Shown piece after piece: positions 26,130-27,599 of a DNA stretch of 33,145 nucleotides. The stretch comes from Nodosilinea sp. LEGE 07298. Lineage in GTDB: Bacteria; Cyanobacteriota; Cyanobacteriia; Phormidesmidales; Phormidesmidaceae. The notes beneath the pieces are model-generated. The model saw only the letters and a program-made list of their open reading frames with translations. It ran no database searches and was not told where the DNA came from. The stretch spans positions 1 to 33,145 of the forward strand of contig NZ_JADEXE010000041.1 of the NCBI RefSeq assembly GCF_015207265.1, read 5' to 3'. How positions within the stretch are numbered: position 1 is the stretch's first letter; the number at the start of each line of letters is the position of its first letter. A program made the position numbers and the translations under genes.

Positions 26130-26721
26130 AGGTTGCGATCGGGCTTAGGCGATTTCCGAGAATAAAAGTACCGTACAATTTGGCCTTGAGCACAGTATAG
26201 GCAGATGAACCGGTAGAGCGAGTTATGTTGCTATCAACCCTAGAAAGAGAGCAATTAAGCAAGAGTCAAATCGAAGACCTGCGGCTGGCATCGACAAAAC
26301 TCAGTGGGGCGAAGCGGCGGAGTTTTCACGCTGAGATGTGCCTGAAATATTGCGATGGGAGCGCAAGATTAGCTGAAACGGTATTTGGCTGGAATCGAGC
26401 CACCGTCGAGCTAGGGTTGGCAGAGCAGAGCAGCGGCATCACTTGCGTGGGGGCACAAGCGAGCGCAAGCGGTACAAAACGGTGGGAAGAACGGCATCCT
26501 GAAGTGGCGCAAGCCCTAAGAGAACTTGCCGAAGCTCATGCTCAACAAGACCCAACGTTTTCAAGTTCCATCGCCTATACCCGATTAACCGCAGCAGCGG
26601 CGTTGGAGCAGTTAGCGCAACGGGGATTTGCTGTCGAACAGTTGCCCTCAGCCAGTACAATGGCCGTCGTGCTGAATCGGATGGGCTACCGGTTGAGGAA
26701 AGTGGTGAAAGCAAAACCCCA

Positions 26722-26728
26722 AAAAAAC
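26722..26728 (+). promoter_or_regulatory. A_AAA_AAC -1 ribosomal slippery site
   Basis: In the first transposase frame the codons are CAA-AAA-AAC-TCC-TAG, so A_AAA_AAC is in the exact phase for -1 slippage. The zero-frame stop comes one codon after the site. The -1 frame reads KKLLETDTIFDNL, which continues the family sequence. Confidence 0.7.
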
Positions 26729-27059
26729 TCCTAGAAACTGACACAATTTTTGATAACCTGCATCGGCACAGCGAGCGACCCAATGACGGCAGCATCAGAC
26801 GATTGAGCATGGATTGTAAAGCGACCGTCAGACTTGGAGATTACTCGCGGGGTGGCAAAACTCGAGGAAATCATCAAGCGAGTGACCACGATATGGGATG
26901 CACTGAGAAATACATTCCCTGCGGCATTGTCGATGAGGACAGCGGGGCGCTGCACATCCACTTCGGCAGCTCTTACAAAACCAGTGATTTCATGGTCGAT
27001 ACCATTCAACAATGGTGGAAGAGCCTAACGCCTGCTCAGCAGCAGACAACCCAACAGAT

Positions 27060-27183
27060 CAACACTCCGGACAGTTTTTGATAGGAAACGGTGGAATGAG
27101 GGTTTCAGCCCTCTTTTACAGTGGTCTGGGCAACGAGAAATCAAGGGTTTCAGCGCTTGTCCGAAAAAGTGTCCGGACTATTG
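27060..27183. mobile_element. MITE-like element inserted in the transposase
   Basis: A 124-bp non-coding segment flanked by ACAGAT at 27054-27059 and 27184-27189. Its ends are inverted repeats: CAACACTCCGGACAGTTTTT on the left and, reversed, CAATAGTCCGGACACTTTTT on the right, 17 of 20 matching. Inside, GGGTTTCAGC is directly repeated at 27100 and 27145. Removing it with one duplication restores QQIQLKMDNGPE across the joint. The parent IS is not recognised. Confidence 0.88.
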
Positions 27184-27599
27184 ACAGATTCAACTCAAAA
27201 TGGATAATGGTCCTGAAAGTAGTGGGGTGCGAACTCAGTTTTTGAATCGGATGGTGGAGTTTGTCGATACAATTGGCAAACCCATTCACTTGCTGTACTA
27301 TCCTCCGTACCATAGTAAGTACAATCCCATTGAGCGATGCTGGGGAATCCTAGAACAGCATTGGAATGGGACTCAGCTAAAAGATGTTGCTACGATGCTT
27401 GCTTGGGCGCAAAGCATGACCTGGAAAGGTCTTCAACCCATTGTTCAGTTGAATCAAAAGGTTTACCAAAAAGGTATCTCACTTTCCAAAGTAGCGATGA
27501 AAGCAGTGGAGAGCAGGTTAGAACGCAATCCTTTGCTACCCAAGTGGGATATCCTGATTCGCCCTGCTTGATTTGGTACCTTCTTTCCCGGAAATCACC

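Follow-up and report, generated by a model that had tools for sequence, protein, structure and literature searches.

What is the 124-bp segment that interrupts a transposase gene in the window (the whole stretch of 33,145 nt that was analysed), which transposase brought it there, and what did its arrival do to the gene? A preliminary description had proposed a MITE-like element with 20-bp inverted ends and a 6-bp duplication, and its boundaries, the 17 matches between its ends and the duplicated ACAGAT proved exact on recount (Table 1). The duplication is perfect, and the window's list of open reading frames contains none of at least 80 amino acids within the 124 bp. The terminal inverted repeats, paired at 17 of 20 positions in the window copy, are conserved across 44 copies, the ends of the family being summarized as CAAYANTCCGGACA. 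As single-stranded DNA, the window copy folds better than shuffled sequences (z = -4.1), chiefly through its ends. Over all 44 copies, consensus folding yields a negligible energy (-0.46 kcal/mol) and gives no support for a conserved RNA-like structure in the family, and no Rfam family matched anywhere in the window. On all sequence criteria for a MITE, positions 27060-27183 are one.

Table 1. Coordinates of the MITE, its target and the host IS in the window
Feature	Position	Strand	Basis or remark
MITE, 124 bp, without coding capacity	27060..27183	+	44 full flanked copies compared
Left terminal inverted repeat, CAACACTCCGGACAGTTTTT	27060..27079	+	17/20 complementary to right end
Right terminal inverted repeat, CAATAGTCCGGACACTTTTT (as read on the - strand)	27164..27183	-	
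Target-site duplication ACAGAT, left copy	27054..27059	.	Sister copies also with 6-bp duplications
Target-site duplication ACAGAT, right copy	27184..27189	.	Sister copies also with 6-bp duplications
Host IS, ISAzo13 family, 1452 bp with insert, 1322 bp without	26148..27599	+	PF07592, NF033519; ends compared with other copies
Host transposase, N-terminal ORF, 169 aa	26225..26734	+	
A7 run (A AAA AAC in 0 frame), host frame moves -1	26721..26727	+	Common to intact relatives
Host transposase, middle part, first catalytic D at about 26812-26814, stop inside MITE at 27079-27081	26803..27081	+	
Host transposase, C-terminal part, second D at 27203-27205, E at 27332-27334, severed	27200..27571	+	

Six further full copies occur in the same genome (79-94% identity; seven in total), and matches were found in 32 of the 59 genomes searched, most of the genus included. 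Carriers include Leptolyngbyaceae cyanobacterium CSU_1_3, with 23 matches, Leptolyngbya sp. RL_3_1 and Phormidesmis priestleyi ULC027. We compared 44 distinct full copies together with their flanks, taken from one plasmid and from the genomes of this strain, its relatives and other cyanobacteria. Of these, 20 lie between exact 6-bp direct repeats, compared with a mean of 0.52 expected from 200 shuffled pairings of flanks, and duplication length has a sharp mode at 6 bp, with no copy at 8 bp. Mean pairwise identity among the copies is 77%, so the family is either old or composed of several lineages. The presence of a copy on plasmid pSyn7339_1 of Synechocystis sp. PCC 7339 (L287, 1501-1624; 81% identity) suggests horizontal, plasmid-borne spread; this copy, from a distant cyanobacterial family, overlaps the annotated end of an SDR oxidoreductase gene by a few bases. 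No exact match to the left end was found in viral contigs. The element represents a MITE family that is new but of a known kind; in the open-access literature we noticed no description of a MITE with such ends, which does not prove that none exists.

The parent of the MITE had gone unrecognized in the preliminary description, which suggested an undescribed family and advised looking for a full-length IS with the same ends and a 6-bp duplication. Our pattern search for the MITE ends returned two paired candidates of IS size, on contigs C75 and C617. The first is such an element: a 1365-bp IS in the same genome (G000:C75:15089-16453), with ends CAACACTCCGGACAG / CAATACTCCGGACAGTTTTTG and GAGTGA on both sides as its own 6-bp duplication. 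It carries one 409-codon transposase frame on the opposite strand, with only short ends left over. The transposase matches Pfam DDE_5 and DDE_Tnp_1 and, below the cut-offs, IS701 and IS4 models, the nearest NCBIfam model being IS701_3 (97.5 bits against a cut-off of 170). The window MITE shares its first 22 bp exactly with the transposase-proximal end of an IS of this type in genome G008. In G002, many contig ends carry copies of this type, as do several in G008. A perfect 6-bp duplication accompanies only one copy of the exact C75 type; most of the rest are found at contig ends, and no duplication flanks two additional copies that we checked. Only the outer ~20 bp are common to the MITE and these IS. 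The MITE interior is not visibly derived from the IS that we found, and because of this the window MITE, judged by its interior, is not a plain deletion derivative of the C75 copy.

Taken as a whole, the explanation that we consider highly probable is that an IS4/IS701-superfamily IS, of which C75 is the representative in this genome, supplied the transposase that moved the MITE in trans. Such a transposase would recognize the CAAYANTCCGGACA ends of the gene-free element and join them to a target site whose two strands are cut 6 bp apart, and repair of the staggered cut would leave the 6-bp duplication. A single event of this kind would have placed the MITE in ACAGAT within the ISAzo13-family transposase gene, between the codons for the first and second catalytic residues. 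The earlier idea of an undescribed family thus holds at most at the level of a subgroup, as a parent in the IS4/IS701 superfamily now has good support. Elsewhere in the genome (L160, G000:C141:5268-5461), a MITE copy directly adjoins a 72-bp end remnant of a C75-type IS, and perhaps inserted into its own parent.

The mover could instead be another, unsampled IS with the same terminal bases, which would make the C75-type IS a mere cousin of the true parent. We think this unlikely. The MITE interior, which does not match the C75-type IS, would fit such a history, several MITE-bearing relatives have no recognizable C75-type IS, and the bodies of multi-copy IS get lost in draft assemblies. However, the C75 IS combines the same terminal sequence, duplication length and genome; the same features recur in a 52%-identical relative from another genus; and the single-ended partial MITE matches in relatives show no longer, transposase-bearing element, those examined being truncated MITEs or a 244-bp copy (L190, G016:C279:2317-2560). 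Within this 244-bp version lies an insert that has inverted ends of its own, CAATACTGTTCGG...CCGAACGGTATTG, and may be a third small element, nested in the MITE.

Two other IS of the same genome were considered as parents and rejected. It is very improbable that an IS4-family IS at G000:C152:44475 is the parent, even though CAATAGTCCGGACA stands at its edge: the 14-mer lies immediately before the IS, whereas other copies of this IS mostly match only from query base 14-17 onwards, with rare exceptions of a few bases, which places the shared 14-mer outside the element. Because the other copies mostly start beyond it, the 14-mer (L154, G000:C152:44475-44488) is the remnant of a MITE or IS end that was hit by the IS insertion; the adjoining IS is abundant at contig ends in this genome (22 matches). 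Even less probable is the IS256-family IS at G000:C617:23224-24803, the second candidate from the pattern search, which seemed convincing, with CAACAGTCCGGACA ends around an IS256-family transposase and a 6-bp duplication, GTCTGA, until a second layer of nesting was seen. The outer parts of this locus align to a 174-bp copy at C209 that holds no gene, and a direct repeat, GCCCCCTAG, together with GAGG... ends of its own, delimits the IS. The locus (L153) is a mirror image of the nest in the window: a MITE of a second family (~174 bp), with the duplication GTCTGA, is split by an IS256-family IS. It serves as a warning against taking every transposase flanked by MITE ends for that of the parent.

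Weakest of all is the reading of the segment as belonging to the ISAzo13-like IS from the outset, for instance in a regulatory role; its probability is vanishingly small, as intact relatives lack the segment, copies of it sit at unrelated sites with duplications of their own, and we found nothing in favour of this reading.

The insertion of the MITE can be followed at the empty site, for which the preliminary description had recommended a search among ISAzo13-like relatives. Along 1231 bp, the joined host flanks are 77% identical to the IS of Cyanobacteria bacterium RM1_2_2 (L072), and the single gap in this alignment lies near the 3' end, away from the insertion point; further relatives give long alignments across the site. 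Because intact relatives of the host IS span the site without the segment, the comparison identifies the segment as an insertion into an ISAzo13-family IS and makes the proposed order of events, IS first and MITE second, certain. Scripted removal of the MITE and one ACAGAT gave a frame that stays open across TQQIQLKMDNGPESSG as far as the natural stop. The removed length is 130 = 3x43+1, and excision cancels the frame change, as had been claimed.

All three fragments of the host transposase match PF07592 in consecutive order in a profile search, and NF033519 (NCBIfam) is matched as well, although no single fragment reaches the curated cut-off, as expected because the gene is split; the earlier assignment to an ISAzo13-like IS is thereby upheld. 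Apart from the MITE, the host IS is otherwise complete, with ends GGCGATTTCC at 26148 and GGAAATCACC at 27599, and the window copy likely has a 3-bp duplication, TTA; flanks at other contig ends would allow TAA and TAT, the pairing of those ends being a guess. About 70 bp of the left end are identical on three other contigs, all of which stop there, and 127 bp of the right end are identical on two contigs; the draft assembly lacks the bodies of these other copies. Judged from such identical ends on several contigs, the host IS is multi-copy and recently spread.

Within this IS, the middle reading frame enters the MITE and terminates ahead of both the second D and the E, in agreement with the claim that the insert parts these residues from the first catalytic D. 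The truncated product should be inactive as a transposase because both residues are missing, and the 'dead transposase' of the preliminary description was well founded. With both of its ends intact and sister copies present, the interrupted IS could nevertheless be mobilized in trans.

A second change of frame, near 26721-26727 in the N-terminal part, was not mentioned in the preliminary description and is common to intact relatives; the close relatives L072, L073, L085, L248 and L261 have the same -1 arrangement at the A7C run. As intact relatives share this arrangement, it does not look like an older lesion, and the copy was probably functional before the MITE arrived. In a rough and noisy survey of 61 relatives, based on single best matches, 27 had a -1 shift, 23 a single frame and 11 a +1 shift, often with an A-run at the junction. 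The conserved A-run (A AAA AAC) between two overlapping ISAzo13-like frames suggests programmed -1 frameshifting or slippage, either of which is likely to be the mode of expression of the host gene. A literature search on ISAzo13 and frameshifting yielded one paper, on mycobacterial genomes. The host IS resembles the ISAzo13 family in its PF07592 and NF033519 matches and differs in that its frames are two, overlapping at an A-run, as in its close relatives; the archaeal relative L131 has, by contrast, one open frame.

The relatives of the parent IS bear on its placement. One on a plasmid of Leptolyngbya boryana (L288) shows 52% identity and has CAATAGTCCGGACA ends (in full, CAATAGTCCGGACAG and CAATAGTTCGGACAG) and a 6-bp duplication, GTTAAA. 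Another, on pMP1 of Deinococcus radiodurans (L289), is 34% identical and has ends CAATGGTTCGTGCAG, with a 7-bp duplication, ATTCTTA, at one of the four full copies there. The Y(2)R(3)E(6)K motif is complete in both relatives, whereas K is replaced by R in the C75 copy. Members of the IS701 family have 4-bp duplications and mostly lack the Y of YREK, whereas the IS4 family has YREK and duplications of 7-13 bp across its subgroups, and the published rule associates YREK with duplications of ~10 bp and its absence with ~5 bp (PMC2266710). L288 and L289, with the full motif and duplications of 6-7 bp, run contrary to that correlation.

Like the IS701 family (PMC2266710; a Deinococcus example is given in PMC10017437), the parent IS has a single ORF and a length of ~1.4 kb, and IS701_3 is its nearest model; it differs in that its score falls short of the cut-off, the duplications in its group are of 6 bp (C75 and L. 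boryana) rather than 4 bp, and Y, R and E are present. With the IS4 family proper, the L. boryana and D. radiodurans relatives share the complete YREK, and the group shares a start with CA; the group differs in its 6-bp duplication (7 bp in one D. radiodurans copy), shorter than the 7-13 bp (about one helix turn) of that family, and in the K-to-R change of C75. By these features, the parent IS does not fit either IS701 or IS4 proper as defined in PMC2266710. It is possible, albeit doubtful, that an unlisted subgroup of the IS4 superfamily, with a YREK transposase, a 6-bp duplication and CAAYRNTCCGGACA-like ends, includes the MITE and its parent and extends from cyanobacteria to Deinococcus; if so, the subgroup would depart from the published rule, and the parent group offers a mild test of the link between YREK and duplication length in IS4-like elements.

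A cyanobacterial genus thus gains a MITE family with a probable parent, and the clean, ordered nest together with dozens of sister insertions could be used to study how MITEs spread. Like known bacterial MITEs (reviewed in PMC10969869), the window MITE is short and gene-free, has inverted ends in common with a resident IS, a target duplication and many copies, and shares their stem-loop potential, as seen in its DNA fold. Nezha, cited in that review, is one cyanobacterial example of such MITEs. A MITE from Microcystis is 187 bp long, with GGCTCTTCG ends, 8-bp duplications and a parent of the ISL3 family (PMC11448079); the window MITE differs from it in its CAAYANTCCGGACA ends, its 6-bp duplications and its probable parent in the IS4/IS701 superfamily.
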